The translations under genes and the position numbers were made by a program. Source: Ignavibacteriae bacterium HGW-Ignavibacteriae-2 (GTDB lineage Bacteria; Bacteroidota; Ignavibacteria; Ignavibacteriales; Melioribacteraceae). From it: a stretch of DNA of 45,586 bases. Below are positions 3,353 through 11,450 of this stretch, piece by piece; within the stretch, counting starts at the first letter, position 1; each line of letters begins with the position of its first letter. The notes beneath the pieces are model-generated. The model was not told where the DNA came from and searched no databases. It worked only from the letters and a program-made list of their open reading frames with translations. Location of the stretch: positions 1-45,586 of the forward strand of contig PGYT01000019.1 of NCBI GenBank assembly GCA_002839805.1, in the 5' to 3' direction.

Positions 3353-3382
3353 GCAATCAAATTTGAAAATTTTGGGGTGCCT

Positions 3383-6187
3383 TTGAAAAAGTTATTACTA
3401 GCCATAAACCTGATTGTTCTTACAATTATAATTAGTTCTTGCAGTATATTTGAAAACATATCAAAAAAGGATAATCTTGTTCCATCAGATTCCTTGGCGG
3501 TAATAGATCCCGGAATTGTAGTAAATGAATTATTAGAGCAAGCCCGATTAAAATATATAGACGCTTTAGCAAATCAGAATTTAGGCTATGTGGAATCCGC
3601 AATTAAAGCTTATGAAAACGCTCTTTCCACAATAACTCAACTCAGTTATTACCCAAGTATTAATGATAATCAAGCTTATGTAGAATTGGAAAACTCGATT
3701 GTTGATGATTATCAGACCTATGTCGATTCATTGGATGAATTGCCAGCAAATATTTCCATGACGGCCTTCGACGAATGGGTTAACAAGGGCGCGGCAGAAA
3801 TAGAATTAATTGACGATAATTCCCAGACTGATGAAACAACACCCGAACAAGTTATAATCGTAGGTGATTTTCCTCTTGAGGTTAACAATGCGGTAGAAAC
3901 TTATATCGAGTACTTTACCGGCAAAGGCGCAAAACATATCAATCTTTGGCTTAGTAGATCGGGCAAATATTTCCCCATGATGGCCAGAATATTTAATGAA
4001 GAAAAAGTACCTCAGCAGCTTATATTTTTGAGTATGATAGAAAGTGGTCTTAATCCGGTTGCTAGATCCTGGGCAAGAGCGGTAGGATTGTGGCAATTTG
4101 TTGCAGCAACTGGTAAAATGTATGACCTGAAAATTGATTTTTACCGTGACGAGAGAAAAGACCCCGAAAAGGCAACTCGGGCGGCTGCAAGACATTTGAG
4201 GGATTTGTATTCTACACTGGGTGATTGGAATCTTGCTTTAGCAGCTTATAACTCAGGAGAAGGAAGAGTTCGACGCGCAATGAGGAAAGCCGGATCAACA
4301 AACTTCTGGGCGATCAGAAAACATCTTCCAAAAGAAACACGAAACTATGTTCCGCAATATATAGCGGTTTCACTTATAACCGCCGAGCCTGAAAAATATG
4401 GTTTTACTGATATTAAGTACATGAAACCTATTGAGAATACAATTTTTAAAATTGGCGGTGCTGTGGATTTAGATGTTCTATCTAAATGCGCGGGAGTTAG
4501 CAAAGATGTTATTATGGAGTTAAATCCTGAACTAACACAACCGCATACACCTCCGAATTACGAAGGTGGATATCCATTACGAATTCCAAAAGTAAGTGAA
4601 TTGATTTTTGCCGAAAATCTTAAATCAATACCAAATGACGCAAAATTACAGTACGTTGTTCATACAGTAAAAAAAGGTGAAACCTTATCTCGTATCGCTG
4701 CGAAATATCATTTAGGTATTACCAACCTAGCCAAAGTAAACAATCTTTCTGTTAGGGCTAATATTTTTCCTAAACAAGAATTAAAGATACCTGTTTCCAG
4801 CATTAAGCAGACTGAATTTGCAGTTAGTACTGACCTAATGCCAGCACTCGAAGAGGCGGGTGATTTCTTGGATAACGCTCCTTATCAAATGATGTTAACA
4901 CAGAACAGCGATCCAAATAAATTCAAGAATATCTACGAAAAAGTTCTCAGTGATTCAATTGATATTATAATTCCTAAAGGCAAGGAAGTAGTCCAATATA
5001 CTGTGAGACCAAAAGATAACCTTGTAGACATAGCTGATATGTTTAATGTTCGTGTTTCGGATGTAAGAAACTGGAACAATATTCCTTATACATCAAATAT
5101 ACGGGTTGGTCAATCCATACAAGTATTCGTTCCAATTGAAAAGAAAAGCTATTATTCTAGTTTAGATAGTCTTTCGCGTGAACAGAAACTCGCTGTTATT
5201 TATGGTAACACAGGTGAATCCTGGATTAAACATAAAATAAGACGTGGTGAATCTTTATCCGCAATTGCTTATAAATACGGCGTAAGTGTTTCAAATCTAA
5301 AAAAATGGAATAATCTAAGAACTAATCGTATTGTTTCCGGTAAGATGTTGCAGATCAACTCCAATAAATTGAGTGGAGCCGACAGGGAAGCTAATTCAGT
5401 GTCAAGTACTTCACAGGGTAAATATATTCGTTACAAAATAAGAAAAGGTGATACTATTAGCGAAATTGCCGAACGCTACGGTGTATCTACAAACAATATA
5501 CGACAGTGGAATAATTTGAGAAATAATCAGATATACTCAGGAAAAACTATTAAAATTTATGATAACGGCGGATCATCAGTCTCGGGATCCAGTTCTTCTT
5601 TGGCCTCATCTTCAAATAATAATGATCCTTCACATTATTCAGTTAGAAGAGGGGATACTATAAGTCAAATCGCTGAAAGAAATGGTGTTTCAACAACCAA
5701 CCTTAAAAACTGGAATAATCTTACCTCAAATAAAATTAAAGTTGGTCAAAAACTTATAATTTATTCCGGAAGAAATAATAATCAATCGGTAGCAAAAAGC
5801 GACAGGAATATTGATACACAAAATAATATCTCCCAAAAAGATAATGTTGTAACCCATGTTGTAAAAAAAGGAGATACACTCGGTCAAATCGCGGAGAATT
5901 ACAATGTGTCCGCACAGGACATAAGAAACTGGAATAATATTTCCGGAAGCAAAATTATCCCAGGAAATAAGCTTGTTATTTATAAAAAAGACAATAACAA
6001 CTTGAGCCAAAATTCAACAAAGTCTGATAATAATAACGGAGATTCAAAAGTGCATAAAGTACGCGACGGCGAATCTTTGTGGATAATCGCGAAAAATTAT
6101 AATGTAAAAGTTTCTGATATTATTCAATGGAACGAGTTACAGGACGATAGAATAACAGTCGGTCTTAATCTCAAAATTTTGAATTAA
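3383..6187 (+). CDS. Lipoprotein lytic transglycosylase with seven LysM domains (MltD-like)
   Basis: Cleaves peptidoglycan glycan strands, probably as an outer-membrane-anchored lipoprotein. It has a lysine-containing N-terminus, a hydrophobic stretch and the lipobox ISSC near residue 20. A helical region precedes the SLT domain (about 190-320), with the catalytic glutamate in SMIESGLNP and the typical AVGLWQF and [10 protein letters not shown] motifs. Seven LysM repeats follow, each about 45 residues, with the recurring pattern GDTxxxIAxxYxV and WNN. At 934 residues it is longer than E. coli MltD, which has two LysM domains. I prefer the TTG start at 3383 because GGGG lies 5 bases upstream; the GTG at 3377 is the alternative. 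Low-complexity Ser/Asn linkers separate the later repeats. Confidence 0.92.
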
Positions 6188-6213: not shown

Positions 6214-6225
6214 TAATAAAAAAGC

Positions 6226-6300
6226 AGTTAGGGGTGTCCCATCCGGGGCTGAGAACATACCCTTGAACCTGATCTGGATAATGCCAGCGTAGGAAAACGG
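6226..6300 (+). promoter_or_regulatory. TPP riboswitch (THI element)
   Basis: The conserved thiamine-pyrophosphate aptamer core is present in order: AGGGGTG at 6230-6236, GGGGCTGAGA at 6245-6254, ACCCTTGAACCTGATC at 6259-6274, and TGGATAATGCCAGCGTAGGA at 6275-6294. P1 can form between GTT (6227-6229) and AAC (6296-6298). The segment AAACGG (6295-6300) can also pair with CCGTTT (6322-6327) in the following terminator stem, giving a readable antiterminator. TPP binding should hold P1 closed, free the terminator and stop transcription of the TonB receptor, thiN and symporter genes. Confidence 0.95.
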
Positions 6301-6319
6301 TCAGAACAATTAAATGCCG

Positions 6320-6348
6320 AGCCGTTTCCCTGAACGGCTTTTTTATTT
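6320..6348 (+). terminator. Riboswitch-controlled intrinsic terminator
   Basis: AGCCGTT (6320-6326) pairs with AACGGCT (6333-6339) around a six-base loop. The hairpin runs straight into a T-rich tract to 6348. It lies between the TPP aptamer and the receptor start. Its left arm is complementary to AAACGG at the aptamer's 3' edge. Confidence 0.88.
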
Positions 6349-6375
6349 CTCTTAATATAAATTAGAGGAGTAGAT

Positions 6376-8844
6376 ATGAAACATTTAATTGTTTTTTTGT
6401 TTTTAATAACATTCAGTATATCCGCACAAAATTTTGCTGTTGAAGGATATGTTTATACTTCAACCGGAAAACCGCTGGAACTAGCTAACATTTCCATAGT
6501 CGCAACATCAATTGGTACCGTTACAAATGAGGAAGGCAAATTTATTTTATCCGGTAATTTCAAAGAATCGGATTTAATTCAAATCAGTTTTATAGGATTC
6601 GAAACAAAAAGAATCCCTGTAAAAGATTTGCTGTCAAATCAAAATACGATAATAATTTTGACAAATGCTGTAATCACCAGTCAAACAGTTCTTGTAAAAA
6701 GTTCGATAGGGCAGGAAGGTTTATCCCCCATGAGTTTTAGTAAAATAAAAAGAACAGAAATAGAAGAGGGTTATGTTAATCAGGATATCCCTGAATTATT
6801 GAGTTATTTACCCTCAACTACTTTTTATTCCGAAGGCGGCTCAGGTATAGGATATAACTATATTAGTATCCGAGGATTTGATCAACGAAGAATATCGGTT
6901 GCCATTAACGGAATTCCACAGAACGATCCTGAAGATCATAACGTCTATTGGGTCGACTTCCCGGATTTACTGGCGAGTACAGAATTGATTCAGGTTCAGC
7001 GCGGCGCAGGAGCAGGAGTAATAGGCTATCCATCTGTTGGTGGTTCAATCAATATAATAACATCCCCTTTTTCAAATGAACCTAAAATGGAATTTGATGT
7101 AAATACAGGAAGTTATAACACGCGAAAATATACGGCTTCTGTTGCAAGCGGATTAATTGATAATAAGTACTCGGTTTATATGAAACTCGGTAATTTACTA
7201 AGCTCGGGTTACCGAGAAAAAAATTGGGTCGATCTCAAATCCTATCATCTTTCGGCCGTACGTTACGATGAAAATATTACCACTCAAATTAATTTCTACG
7301 GCGGTCCCATAGAGGATGGTTTAACATATACTGGACTCCCTAAATTTGCCGTAAAGGACAGAAATTTGAGAAAACAAAACTTTTCCTACTGGGAGACTGA
7401 GGGCAATAAATATACTTATACATTAGATAGAAGAAAGGATGAAGTTGAAAGTTTTTCCCAACCTCATTATGAAATACTAAATGAATTTAGAATTAATGAA
7501 GATATAATTTTTAATTCGGCTTTATTTTTAGTGATAGGTAAAGGTTACTTTGATTACGATGGTTCCTGGAGCGTTTACTATGATGATTATTTCCGTCTGA
7601 ATGCTAATGGATACAATTCAGATTCTGTGCCTCAAAACGCTCTGATTAGAGCGCAGGTGGAAAATAAACAATGGGGCTGGATTCCAAGACTAAGTATCAA
7701 ACATAATTCGGGTGAATTGATTGTAGGTGGTGAAATTAGGTTTCACAAATCGTTACATTGGGGAGGTATAAATTATGCTGAAAACCTTCCTGCGGGTCTA
7801 ACAAAAGATTATCGCTATTATAGCTATAACGGTGGAAAAGATATAATTAATTTTTACGCTCATGAAATGTTTAACGCAACCGACAAATTGAATCTATTGG
7901 TTGAAGCTCAAATAGCTTATCATAATTATAAAATTAATAATGAACGTTATGAGGGTAATAATTTCGAAATAAACAATTTATTTTTTAATCCGCGTCTGGG
8001 TGTAAACTATAAATTTTCTCAAGCTTTAAGTAGTTTTATATCATTCGCAAGAGTATCCAGGGAACCGCGTTTAAAAACATATTACGACGCTGCCGAATCA
8101 AGCGGTGGAGAAGTTCCGCAATTTGAAATGTACGAAGACGGTTCATATAATTACAATAAACCGCTTGTTAAACCGGAAGTAATGAATAGTTTTGAACTTG
8201 GTGTAAAATACGATGTTCAGAATCTCTCAGCTTCGGTAAATATTTTTTATATGCTATTTAATGATGAGATTGTAAAAAAAGGGCAACTAGATAGATTCGG
8301 TCAACCGGTCACCGGGAATATTGATCAGACTATTCATTCAGGTATAGAACTTAGTTTGGGATCAAAATTTGCCGATATATTCGAAATAAAATCTAATGCA
8401 GCTTTTAGTAAAAATTATATAAACAAAGGGGTTTATTTTATTTCAGAAAACCAATCCATTGATCTGAAAGATAACAATATCAGCGGTTTTCCTGATGTAA
8501 CCGCAAATATTATTCTTAGTATGAACTATCGTGGTTTTTTCGCACAGTTGAGCGGAAAATATGTGGGTGCGTTCTTTTCGGATAATTATGATGATAATCT
8601 AACTGATTATTTAGTTGATCACCCGGGATTTGTTGATTATTATGACAATAAAGTGGACGCCTATTTTACAGCAAACTTTTTGGCGAGCTACAGAGTTAAT
8701 ATGTTGCCAGTATTTAAAACAGTGAAAATATTTTTACAGGTGAACAACATTTTTGATAATCTGTATGCAGCTTATGCCGTTGGAAAGGAATATTTCCCGG
8801 CGGCCGAAAGACATTTTACCGCAGGAGTAAATGTAGGTTTATGA
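6376..8844 (+). CDS. TonB-dependent outer membrane receptor, probable thiamine uptake
   Basis: Outer membrane active-transport receptor, 822 residues. It has a signal peptide ending near ISAQ (residue 18), a carboxypeptidase-regulatory-like beta-sandwich (about 22-105), a plug domain (about 125-230, with YISIRGFDQRR and SVGGSINIIT) and a 22-strand-type barrel. GAGGAG at 6365-6370 is a strong ribosome binding site. The TPP riboswitch upstream and the coupled thiamine pyrophosphokinase gene downstream (4-base ATGA overlap) predict thiamine or a thiamine phosphate as substrate. That specificity is inferred from context, not from residues. The domain order is common for SusC-like and other Bacteroidota receptors, but no SusD gene follows. 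Confidence 0.93.
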   Translation: MKHLIVFLFLITFSISAQNFAVEGYVYTSTGKPLELANISIVATSIGTVTNEEGKFILSGNFKESDLIQISFIGFETKRIPVKDLLSNQNTIIILTNAVITSQTVLVKSSIGQEGLSPMSFSKIKRTEIEEGYVNQDIPELLSYLPSTTFYSEGGSGIGYNYISIRGFDQRRISVAINGIPQNDPEDHNVYWVDFPDLLASTELIQVQRGAGAGVIGYPSVGGSINIITSPFSNEPKMEFDVNTGSYNTRKYTASVASGLIDNKYSVYMKLGNLLSSGYREKNWVDLKSYHLSAVRYDENITTQINFYGGPIEDGLTYTGLPKFAVKDRNLRKQNFSYWETEGNKYTYTLDRRKDEVESFSQPHYEILNEFRINEDIIFNSALFLVIGKGYFDYDGSWSVYYDDYFRLNANGYNSDSVPQNALIRAQVENKQWGWIPRLSIKHNSGELIVGGEIRFHKSLHWGGINYAENLPAGLTKDYRYYSYNGGKDIINFYAHEMFNATDKLNLLVEAQIAYHNYKINNERYEGNNFEINNLFFNPRLGVNYKFSQALSSFISFARVSREPRLKTYYDAAESSGGEVPQFEMYEDGSYNYNKPLVKPEVMNSFELGVKYDVQNLSASVNIFYMLFNDEIVKKGQLDRFGQPVTGNIDQTIHSGIELSLGSKFADIFEIKSNAAFSKNYINKGVYFISENQSIDLKDNNISGFPDVTANIILSMNYRGFFAQLSGKYVGAFFSDNYDDNLTDYLVDHPGFVDYYDNKVDAYFTANFLASYRVNMLPVFKTVKIFLQVNNIFDNLYAAYAVGKEYFPAAERHFTAGVNVGL

Positions 8845-9527
8845 AAATCGTGAAAGAAAATAAAAAAAAGAAATGCCTTATACTTGCAAACGGTAATAAA
8901 CCATCAAAATACTGGATTAACTATTTTATTCGAACAGGTTATAATTTTGTTATATGCGCCGATGGCGGAGCAGATAATGCTAAACAGTTGGGAATACAAC
9001 CTAAAATTATAATCGGGGATCTCGACTCAATTTCAGCGCAAACATTAAAACATTATGAAAATACGGCGCAAATTATCAAATATAAAAGACAGAACGATAC
9101 CGATCTGGAAAAAAGTATTAAATTCGCCGTTAAAAATGGATTCGAAGAAGTTGTGCTTTGCGGTGCCACAGGCAACAGACTTGATCATACATTCGGAAAT
9201 CTGGGAGTAGTGCTTAAATTTAACGATAAAATAAAAATTTTTCTTCACCATCATAAATCGATTCTTTACGCAATAAAAGGCTCTAATATTATCCCAACAC
9301 ATGAAGGTGAAACGATCTCATTTTATGGAATTGACAACAAAACTAAATTTATCTCAAAAGGATTAAAGTATCCGCTTCGAAATGTAAGTTTACCATTTGG
9401 TATTAGTGAAAGCACAAGTAATGTGGCGAAAACAAAAAATATTACTATTAAAATTTCCGGTGGAACTGGATTTGTAATCAGGGATCTGGAAACGGTTAAA
9501 AAATATGATCTCATTTTCCACGCTTGA
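8841..9527 (+). CDS. thiN: Thiamine pyrophosphokinase
   Basis: Converts thiamine plus ATP directly to thiamine pyrophosphate in the cytoplasm. The 228-residue length is normal. Family motifs are visible: CADGGADNAKQLGI (about 39-52), IIGDLDSIS (about 57-65), QNDTDLEKSI and GATGNRLDHTFGN (about 110-122), which form the ATP/thiamine-binding N-domain. A smaller beta-rich C-domain follows, with ISGGTGFVI. The start codon overlaps the receptor stop by 4 bases, and the gene runs 23 bases into the symporter gene, so all three are probably translated together under riboswitch control. It makes imported thiamine usable as cofactor and produces the TPP that closes the feedback loop. Confidence 0.95.
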   Translation: MKIVKENKKKKCLILANGNKPSKYWINYFIRTGYNFVICADGGADNAKQLGIQPKIIIGDLDSISAQTLKHYENTAQIIKYKRQNDTDLEKSIKFAVKNGFEEVVLCGATGNRLDHTFGNLGVVLKFNDKIKIFLHHHKSILYAIKGSNIIPTHEGETISFYGIDNKTKFISKGLKYPLRNVSLPFGISESTSNVAKTKNITIKISGGTGFVIRDLETVKKYDLIFHA

Positions 9528-10902
9528 TATAATAATAATATTAACATTTTTTATTGCCGTAATGATTGTTGGGTTTATTCCGACTTTTAAAAAAGAAAAA
9601 AATGCGGAAAACTATCTTCTATCTGGGAGAAAAGTTGGTCTAATTCTTTTTATTCTTACAAACGTGGCAACGTGGTACGGCGGTATTTTGGGAGTAGGGG
9701 AGTTTACTTATAGATATGGTCTGGTAAGCTGGTTTACCCAAGGACTTCCATATTATTTTTTTGCGTTTATTTTTGCTATTGTACTGGCTCCCAAAATTAG
9801 CAAAACTTCAATGTTTACAATACCTGAAAAAATTGGAAGTGTGTACGGGGAAAAAATAGGGCTTATTTCGGCGTTGCTTATTTTTATTTTAGTTTCACCT
9901 GCGCCATATCTGCTGATGATAGCAAATCTTATTTCGCTTATTTTTGGGATTGATACACTACCTGCTTTGTTCGCCGGTTTAATAATTTCAATAGCGTATC
10001 TCTTTAAAGGAGGGTATAAATCCGACCTGTACACAGACGCATTGGAGTTTTTTATAATGTTCGCCGGTTTTGCAATTTTATTTTTCGTTAGCAGCAGTAC
10101 AACAGGTGGATATGATTTTCTAGAATCTAATCTTCCCTCGGATCACCTTTCTTTAACTGGAAACACTTCTGTTACATTTCTTATCGTGTGGTTTCTGATA
10201 GCTTTATGGACTTTCACCGATCCGGGTTTTCATCAAAGATGTTATGCAGCAAGAACTCCCAATGTAGCAAAGTACGGAATTCTTATAAGCATAATTTTAT
10301 GGGCGGTTTTCGATTTTCTTACAACTTCAACAGGTTTGTTTGCAAGGGCCGTATTACCCAATTTGAATAATCCTGTGCTCGCTTTTCCATTATTGGCCGA
10401 AAGGGTTTTAGGCAGCGGTTTCAAAGGGATTTTCTACGCAGCTTTATTTGCTACCATTCTTTCTACTTTGAACAGTTTTTTATTTTTAAGTGCAACAACA
10501 ATTAGCCGAGATTTTATCTGGAAAGTCAAACGCGATAAATCTGATGAAAAGCTTATAAAATATACTAGAATAGGACTTTTTCTAACGGGAATAATTTCCC
10601 TATTGCTTGCATACAGTATTCAGTCAGTTATTGAAATATGGTACACAATAGGGAGTATCTGTATTCCGGGAATAATTCTTTTAGTGTTCAGTTCGTATTT
10701 CGAAAAAATAAGAATAAGTAAACACATAGCCATTTATGAAACGCTTGCAGCTGTGGCATCGAGTCTAATATGGTTGTTGATCCGAACAAACGTAACACTA
10801 CACGGATGGCTCGGCGAAATCGAGCCGATGATAATCGGTATGTTATTCGCCTCCACCGTTCATATTTATGGGCTAAGTAAAAGAAAAACTATAGCGTTAT
10901 AA
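9505..10902 (+). CDS. Sodium:solute symporter (SSS family), predicted thiamine transporter
   Basis: Inner-membrane sodium-coupled symporter, 465 residues, with about 13 hydrophobic segments. SSS features include ENYLLSGRKVG in the first loop (about 31-41), ATWYGGILGVGE (about 54-65), a loop FTDPGFHQRCYAAR (about 237-250) and ATILSTLNSFLFLSATTISRD (split as about 315-335). It overlaps thiN by 23 bases and is the third gene behind the TPP riboswitch. By context it should move thiamine or a precursor across the inner membrane, the position held by PnuT in many Bacteroidota thiamine operons. SSS-type thiamine transporters have been predicted in other organisms, but substrate cannot be read from the sequence. 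The stop lies 2 bases from the convergent pdaD gene. Confidence 0.88.
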   Translation: MISFSTLDIIIILTFFIAVMIVGFIPTFKKEKNAENYLLSGRKVGLILFILTNVATWYGGILGVGEFTYRYGLVSWFTQGLPYYFFAFIFAIVLAPKISKTSMFTIPEKIGSVYGEKIGLISALLIFILVSPAPYLLMIANLISLIFGIDTLPALFAGLIISIAYLFKGGYKSDLYTDALEFFIMFAGFAILFFVSSSTTGGYDFLESNLPSDHLSLTGNTSVTFLIVWFLIALWTFTDPGFHQRCYAARTPNVAKYGILISIILWAVFDFLTTSTGLFARAVLPNLNNPVLAFPLLAERVLGSGFKGIFYAALFATILSTLNSFLFLSATTISRDFIWKVKRDKSDEKLIKYTRIGLFLTGIISLLLAYSIQSVIEIWYTIGSICIPGIILLVFSSYFEKIRISKHIAIYETLAAVASSLIWLLIRTNVTLHGWLGEIEPMIIGMLFASTVHIYGLSKRKTIAL

Positions 10903-10904
10903 TT

Positions 10905-11450
10905 TTATGGAATAAGTATTCCAGCTGCAACCACAGTTGTCCACAAACCATCTTTATCACCTTTAGCGGTTTGCGTATTATTAAATGTACGTACAATTTT
11001 ACCCGACATTTTGTAGACCTGCTCTCTTTCGTTCCAGGCTTTGTCAGCGTCGAAATCGATTCCTAAAGTTGTTGCAAGCATAGTTGCTGCAAGATCTTCG
11101 GCATAGTCGCCGGCGACTTTTGCTGTTTCACCGAAAGGATGGTGTTCTGATAAATAACCATACATTTTTTTGTTAGCTGGAATTGCTGCACCAATTGATG
11201 CTGCTATTAATCTGTTTGGCTCGCAAGTAGCGTTACGAGCTATTACGGCATGAACAATTTGACCGGGACTTAATAATTTTAATCCTTCTTCGAGGGTAAC
11301 TGTTTGGCAACCGATCGGATAAATACTGCTAACACTTACTAAATTAAATTTTTCAATTTGAGCACTTCTCAATGCTGATTCGAAGGAAGCCAAATATTCT
11401 TTATGGCGACCAACGCCTTTGGTAAAAACTATTTTTTTTGGAAGGTACAA
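10905..11450 (-). CDS. pdaD: Pyruvoyl-dependent arginine decarboxylase
   Basis: Makes agmatine from arginine for polyamine synthesis. The proenzyme cleaves itself to create a pyruvoyl cofactor. The self-cleavage motif [10 protein letters not shown] is clear, with the scissile bond expected between Ser41 and Ser42. Other family features are the segment [12 protein letters not shown] (about 62-73), AASIGAAIP and [14 protein letters not shown] near the C-terminus. At 181 residues it is in the normal range. The start is TTG at 11450, supported by AAGGAG nine bases upstream. It lies 18 bases after tyrS on the same strand. It is an alternative to the larger PLP-dependent SpeA; none is in this window. 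Confidence 0.93.

Follow-up and report, generated by a model that had tools for sequence, protein, structure and literature searches.

Which protein moves thiamine across the inner membrane when a thiamine operon carries a different protein in the place of the carrier PnuT? The question is raised by a locus of Ignavibacteriae bacterium HGW-Ignavibacteriae-2 (assembly GCA_002839805.1) on a DNA stretch of 45,586 nucleotides (contig PGYT01000019.1), here called the window. On its forward strand, a thiamine pyrophosphate (TPP) riboswitch is followed by genes for a TonB-dependent receptor (TBDR), a thiamine pyrophosphokinase (ThiN) and a protein of the sodium:solute symporter (SSS) family; it is the SSS protein, not PnuT, that stands in the carrier position. 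A sequence-only reading of the window had proposed that the receptor and the SSS protein together import thiamine and that ThiN traps it as TPP. Genome comparisons support this proposal. The SSS protein very probably carries thiamine inward across the inner membrane, because it is linked to thiamine genes order-wide, because searches of the genome found no thiC, thiE or pnuC, because PnuC-family carriers are absent from genomes with the symporter (0 of 114) and because the two carriers are exchanged within one operon. Both the substrate and the direction of transport we infer from sequence comparisons.

The operon and the thiamine economy of its host

The aptamer of the riboswitch (6220–6312, forward strand) matches the full model RF00059 (positions 1–105) with 72.2 bits (cmscan, E 2.1e-12, gathering score 54.3). 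Position 6226, taken as the start of the locus before, falls 6 bases within the modelled aptamer. The receptor gene (6376–8844) encodes 822 amino acids with the domains PF00593 (barrel), PF07715 (plug) and PF13715 (CarbopepD_reg). It is followed by thiN (8841–9527, 228 amino acids; TIGR01378 with 156.9 bits, cut-off 76.4; PF04263 and PF04265) and the SSS gene (9505–10902, 465 amino acids; PF00474 with 107.7 bits, cut-off 22.8). The overlaps were recomputed as 4 bases between receptor gene and thiN and 23 bases between thiN and the SSS gene; composition and overlaps of the operon had thus been read correctly from the letters. The operon comprises these three genes only, because the next gene converges on the opposite strand and ends 2 bases past the SSS stop codon. 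The receptor is proposed to be an outer-membrane thiamine receptor, and in relatives a receptor homologue was also found downstream of the TPP riboswitch. The substrate of ThiN is unphosphorylated thiamine, which the enzyme converts with ATP to TPP.

The assembly of 4.16 Mb is 99.9% complete. The nearest named relatives by SSS gene are metagenome genomes of Melioribacteraceae and Ignavibacteriales. No TPP riboswitch other than that of the window was found in the genome. A search that covered ThiC, ThiE and PnuC detected no ThiC, no ThiE-family match at E 0.001 and no PnuC-family carrier (PF04973, zero matches). In the absence of ThiE, precursors cannot be joined to thiamine phosphate. Given the single riboswitch and the missing matches for ThiC, ThiE and PnuC, the host seems to lack both thiamine synthesis and the joining of precursors, and it would depend on thiamine itself. 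It is likely a thiamine auxotroph.

Linkage to thiamine genes and exchange with PnuC/PnuT

Within the order of the window, the SSS protein was found in 142 of 164 genomes (E 1e-30 or better, fragments included) and the TPP riboswitch in 146. ThiC was present in six of the 164 genomes, each of which has two TPP riboswitches, and a ThiE-family match over the cut-off was present in nine. PF04973 was over the cut-off in none; three matches were below it. In at least 114 of the 142 genomes, the SSS gene is located 3063–4090 bases downstream of a TPP riboswitch on the same strand. The distances were taken from 150 listed riboswitch matches and further matches exist, so that 114 is a lower bound. The linkage between an SSS transporter and thiamine, held to be uncommon in the sequence-only reading, is instead the rule in this order; it was also reported for Caldithrix abyssi in 2017 (PMC5317091), and other SSS proteins under TPP riboswitches are known.

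From the other 28 genomes with the SSS protein, 22 loci were fetched; G129, G148, G065, G024, G141 and G045 were left out. A thiN gene lies just upstream of the SSS gene in 20 of the 22, and the remaining two end at a contig edge. Two loci, G146 and G028, show the riboswitch motif. The sole true exception is G153, with about 6 kb upstream that contain neither receptor nor riboswitch. In the remaining fetched loci the contig stops short of the riboswitch position, including G010, where the 498 bases before thiN contain no receptor gene. A scan of genome contigs yielded 26 named loci; 25 contain orthologues (at least 55% identity) and the 26th, from Sutterella, a distant SSS protein with 21% identity. 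In all 25 orthologous loci the SSS gene adjoins a thiN that is complete or truncated at the contig edge, and the receptor is present, whole or in part, in 22. Of the 24 named loci scanned with cmscan, 20 have the riboswitch; L017, which was outside the scan, has the motif, and the loci L002, L008 and L014 are truncated at contig edges.

A second TPP riboswitch was observed in a same-genus relative (L223, G133:C370) upstream of ThiM-, ThiE- and ThiL-like genes, with ThiM and ThiL named by eye. Because of these genes behind a riboswitch, this relative can probably salvage precursors.

Beyond the order, the search covered 395 genomes drawn evenly from the phylum. The SSS protein was found in 114 of them, 40 within the order and 74 outside, and the weakest match of 1.5e-57 was far better than the limit of 1e-35. 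All 74 genomes outside the order have a TPP riboswitch somewhere (71 over the cut-off), and ThiC was detected in none of the 74. The gene contexts fall into three groups. In 21 genomes, riboswitch, thiN and SSS gene are arranged in cis with a receptor. This group includes G418, in which a weak receptor homologue comes after the SSS gene, and G167, in which riboswitch, receptor, thiN and the SSS start share one contig and a C-terminal SSS fragment lies on another. In 32 genomes, thiN is within about 1 kb of the SSS gene, with neither riboswitch nor receptor in the fetched stretch. The last 21 SSS genes are near none of these elements. The search among relatives that had been suggested for SSS homologues under TPP riboswitches thus gave at least 114 of 142 in the order and 21 of 74 in cis outside it.

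The riboswitch regions of 20 of the 53 non-cis genomes were fetched (15 from the unlinked and 5 from the thiN-only group); a TonB receptor homologue follows the riboswitch in all 20, with 22–43% identity to the receptor of the window. A TPK (ThiN) domain over the cut-off is encoded in all 22 genomes formed by the 21 unlinked ones and G167. The family f7 has all of its ten genomes in the unlinked group, and in the four with a fetched riboswitch region, the TPP riboswitch precedes a receptor gene elsewhere in the genome. Among the f7 neighbours, named from the single member L149, a CDP-alcohol phosphatidyltransferase lies on the other side of the SSS gene in 5 of 10 loci. An RNase HII family member was observed near the SSS gene in 9 of the 10 f7 loci (L141, L144–L151).

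In the sample from the phylum, PnuC-family proteins and the SSS protein exclude each other. Of its 395 genomes, which are the same draw as for the SSS count, judged by size, tallies and handles, 157 have PF04973 over the cut-off. None of the 114 genomes with the SSS protein has it over the cut-off, against about 45 expected (Fisher p 4.6e-32, uncorrected for ancestry); G031 has a match below the cut-off. In the families f6, f10 and f32, some genera carry PF04973 and other genera the SSS protein. The exchange is most direct in f10. The order is TPP riboswitch, receptor, thiN and PnuC in G242 and G431, and riboswitch, receptor, thiN and SSS in G268, G339 and G380; the operon ends with PnuC/PnuT in two genera and with the SSS gene in three. 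Riboswitch scores are 45.5 bits in G242 and 41.3 bits in G268, both under 54.3, and 65.7 bits in G431. The G268 receptor is 60% identical to that of the PnuC operon of G242 versus 40% to that of the SSS operon of G380, and the G268 ThiN shares 58% identity with G242 versus 47% with G380. By gene order and identity, this is a direct swap between PnuC/PnuT and SSS, with the last gene exchanged and the rest of the operon kept. According to PMC5613172, which cites other work on this point, PnuT expressed in Escherichia coli transports thiamine. Compared with a Bacteroides thetaiotaomicron mutant in thiamine synthesis only, mutants that also lack either the receptor or the carrier require about 10 times more thiamine (PMC5613172).

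Family, putative binding site and probable substrate of the symporter

Beyond PF00474, the protein scored 129.9 bits with the superfamily model TIGR00813, under its cut-off of 184 (NCBIfam). The PanF and PutP equivalog models of NCBIfam were far from their cut-offs (panF 83.9 of 328.05 bits, putP 77 of 515.5 bits), and the family models tried yield no name finer than sodium:solute symporter. The AlphaFold model has a mean pLDDT of 88.5. Foldseek ranks SGLT2 first and CHT1 second, SGLT1 and SiaT following closely; query TM-scores are 0.88 for SGLT2, 0.85 for CHT1 and 0.83 for SiaT. Profile searches against solved relatives ranked a choline transporter first (9rws, E 3.2e-28), before SGLT1 (5.2e-22) and CHT1 (3.3e-21).

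A quick tree was made, as had been suggested, with 83 rows from 105 candidates; half of the rows of the order and a third of those of the thiN group were omitted, as were L026, L128, L145 and the fragment L143. The 74 rows of the clade are separate from PutP, PanF and seven plasmid SSS proteins (SH-aLRT 99). The order of the window forms one clade (100), and the unlinked group forms one clade (100) among linked rows (87 for the enclosing branch). The root is unsure due to long outgroup branches. The plasmid proteins come from seven loci fetched out of 153 matching records, and no TPP motif was detected in these loci. Seven phage records were matched as well, with 22–26% identity among the five matches listed. 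The SSS protein of Proteus is PutP-like by eye and has no close match to 5nv9.

Sodium coupling we infer from conserved residues. Ser-320 and Thr-321 align with the Ser-Thr pair of PutP in transmembrane helix 8 (TM8), which we take to bind Na+, and are present in 95 and 85 of 96 clade members, respectively. The substrate side was compared with CHT1, where the ammonium group of choline is caged by Trp-62, Tyr-91, Trp-141 and Trp-254 (PMC11589582). Read from the alignment, these positions correspond to Trp-57, Tyr-83, Ser-131 and Asp-239. Among 96 aligned clade members, Trp-57 is conserved in 94, Tyr-84 in 96, Asp-239 in 96, Phe-242 in 95 and His-243 in 84. Position 83 is a tyrosine in 75 and a phenylalanine in 21, and position 131 varies. 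In the seven plasmid outgroups, Trp-57 and Asp-239 are each kept in two, Phe-242 in one and Tyr-84 in none. A partly kept cage would fit thiamine, since thiamine is a cation. Trp-57, Tyr-83, Tyr-84, Asp-239 and Phe-242 are conserved in every one of the 20 aligned proteins from the unlinked group, which suggests that the whole clade shares one substrate.

Several observations weigh against thiamine as this substrate. Outside the order, 53 of the 74 SSS genes lack a TPP riboswitch upstream in cis (32 are near thiN only, 21 near neither), and the linkage therefore weakens with distance. The sequence-only reading had held that homologues lying mostly outside TPP-riboswitch operons would refute its proposal; within the order most lie inside them, and outside the order most do not, although 32 of these 53 are near thiN and every one of the 74 genomes has a riboswitch somewhere. 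Even within the order, one thiN–SSS pair on the G153 contig (L010, also L205) follows a peptidase-like gene without receptor or riboswitch. The exclusion statistic for PnuC ignores shared ancestry. PF04973 itself is mixed: of 16 PnuC loci fetched, three (L181, L182 and L193) are beside thiN and a receptor, and three others (L191, L192 and L196) are beside an AAA_28 gene, which we take to be NadR-like. The exclusion alone was rejected as a proof of SSS function because of this mixture. Finally, another organic cation is conceivable because the best solved profile relative is a choline carrier.

A carrier of such a cation, for example choline, merely co-transcribed with thiN, would agree with 9rws as the best solved profile relative (E 3.2e-28), with the aromatic partners of two of the four cage residues (Trp-57, and Tyr or Phe at position 83 in 96 of 96 members) and with the 21 of 74 homologues outside the order that are near neither thiN nor riboswitch. 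The other two cage positions differ, with Asp-239 for Trp-254 and a variable Ser-131 for Trp-141. Moreover, the SSS gene is linked to riboswitch or thiN across the order. Outside it, such a link exists in 53 of 74 genomes, for 21 through a riboswitch in cis and for 32 through thiN alone; a TPP riboswitch is present somewhere in 74 of these 74 genomes and ThiC in 0, and PF04973 is over the cut-off in 0 of the 114 genomes with the SSS protein. We consider this explanation very unlikely. Import of a precursor such as hydroxymethylpyrimidine (HMP) is judged no less improbable. It is argued for ThiV/SSSP, the proposed HMP carrier of SAR11 under a TPP riboswitch (PMC11452348, PMC4260697), and Phe-242–His-243 resembles the published signature of HMP/thiamin symporters, with the positions unmatched. 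In that signature (SiaT Tyr 78, Asp 139 and Phe-His/polar 254), Tyr-83, Tyr-84 and Phe-242–His-243 are candidates for two of the three elements, again with unmatched positions. Against this, the genome of the window has no ThiE-family match (E 0.001) and no ThiC, the operon partner ThiN uses thiamine, and in two genera the place of the SSS gene in the operon is taken by PnuC/PnuT. For the genome of the window, precursor import was rejected because ThiE was not found.

The least probable of these explanations, with only a slim chance, is that the receptor delivers thiamine monophosphate or diphosphate for uptake by the carrier and that ThiN is a side activity. The ligand form of the receptor leaves room for it, but ThiN acts on unphosphorylated thiamine, and the invariant Asp-239 together with the aromatic residues would suit a cation better than a phosphate. 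For the thiamine carrier we go one step further, with a confidence only somewhat above even: the SSS clade may be a dedicated sodium:thiamine symporter that was repeatedly swapped with PnuT within the phylum, that combines a partial choline-type cage (Trp-57, Tyr-83/Phe-83) with an invariant Asp-239 in place of Trp-254 of the choline carrier, and that serves auxotrophs even outside the operon.

Riboswitch control, neighbouring genes and known systems

A terminator-like hairpin with a 9-bp stem, a 4-base loop and a T tail is located directly 3' of the aptamer (6319–6340, forward strand) and is the candidate expression platform; the sequence-only reading had made no mention of it. The pattern scan found seven terminator-like sites in 5 kb versus 2.7 in shuffled sequences; position and conservation outweigh the hit itself. 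Of 22 loci inspected, counting the window, 20 have a terminator-like hairpin between aptamer and receptor gene, and L016 and L024 lack it; for L017 the end of the aptamer is an estimate, not a scan result. The conserved hairpin after the aptamer suggests that the riboswitch acts by terminating transcription. At the 3' end of the aptamer, GGAAAACGG (6292–6300, forward strand) is proposed as antiterminator strand in a pairing with CCGTTTCC of the terminator that contains one bulge. This strand remains a suggestion because the longest exact complement has only 6 bases and the predicted fold of 6220–6352 is not unusual (z −1.20). Presumably, TPP switches the operon off. With 41–48 bits, the riboswitches of G268, G314, G376 and L181 fall short of the Rfam cut-off (54.3), but they precede the same kind of operon.

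The locus is best explained as an operon with which a likely auxotroph salvages thiamine. At low cellular TPP, the riboswitch would let transcription pass the terminator at 6319–6340. The TonB-dependent receptor would move scarce thiamine across the outer membrane, and the SSS protein, occupying the place held by PnuT in other Bacteroidota, would move it with sodium across the inner membrane. ThiN would convert thiamine to TPP and thereby trap it. Binding of TPP to the riboswitch would close the feedback.

The convergent neighbour (10905–11450, reverse strand) encodes a pyruvoyl-dependent arginine decarboxylase with tyrS beyond, and several relatives have the same neighbourhood. Upstream of the thiamine operon, a gene for a LysM-rich, MltD-like transglycosylase occupies 3377–6187. 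An MltD-like gene is also located upstream in L003–L007, L009, L011, L013, L015–L023, L025 and L026. No such gene was present within about 2.6 kb upstream in L024. The second riboswitch of G078 (L224) is likewise downstream of an MltD-like gene.

If the SSS clade is a thiamine carrier, most of one order and many genomes beyond it are likely vitamin B1 auxotrophs. A known import route for B1 matters for the prediction of vitamin cross-feeding. The swap of PnuT and SSS within one operon offers a clean pair for testing by what means two unrelated carriers come to handle one substrate.

Since the description of ThiV (Rodionov 2002, cited in PMC4260697 and PMC2211319), it has been known that TPP riboswitches can precede genes of SSS carriers; reconstructions of gut genomes count ThiV among the B1 transporters (PMC6593275). 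ThiV/SSSP of SAR11, Methylobacillus and algae shares with the window an SSS carrier under a TPP riboswitch (PMC4260697, PMC11452348). A phenylalanine followed by histidine or a polar residue is reported for TM6 (PMC11452348), where the window protein has Phe-242–His-243, with the positions unmatched. In contrast, HMP is the substrate proposed in SAR11 and the accessible parts of these papers mention no receptor–thiN operon; the comparison is by description (PMC4260697, PMC11452348). In fungi, DUR31 (NCU01977) is reported as a thiamin carrier (PMC5997356). It belongs to the SSS (SLC5) family and is regulated by TPP riboswitches in some species, and its deletion causes a pyrithiamine resistance that the authors read as lost thiamin uptake (PMC5997356). 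It is likened to the clade of the window by description and differs in being eukaryotic and controlled via splicing (PMC5997356). CHT1 and sfCHT have a cationic substrate too; a choline transporter is the best solved profile match, and Trp-62 and Tyr-91 align with Trp-57 and Tyr-83. However, their substrate is choline (PMC11589582, PMC13220886), and the cage residues Trp-141 and Trp-254 are not conserved in the window's protein.

The OMthi and pnuT-tnr3 genes of B. thetaiotaomicron combine the same functions: a TPP riboswitch, an outer-membrane TonB-dependent receptor, an inner-membrane carrier and a TPP-making enzyme. They differ in that the carrier is PnuT, the operon is split in that strain and the organism also makes thiamine (PMC5613172). 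The paper PMC9530715 mentions Ignavibacteria and thiamine and, in its accessible part, not the operon of the window. Among the open-licence literature matches listed, with subscription journals mostly outside the scope, no description of the order-wide operon or of the exchange with PnuT was found. The closest system is that of Caldithrix abyssi, whose genome paper of 2017 reported a TPP riboswitch, a TonB receptor, a sodium-solute symporter and a thiamin pyrophosphokinase together (PMC5317091). Cabys_3975–3977 comprise the same parts as the operon of the window, and the thiamine pathway is incomplete there too (PMC5317091). The locus belongs to another phylum and a single organism and is likened to the window by description, not by sequence; the receptor was named a likely thiamine transporter and, in the accessible text, the substrate of the symporter is not mentioned (PMC5317091). 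The operon type itself is thus already known; added here are the pattern across the phylum and the exchange with PnuT within the operon.

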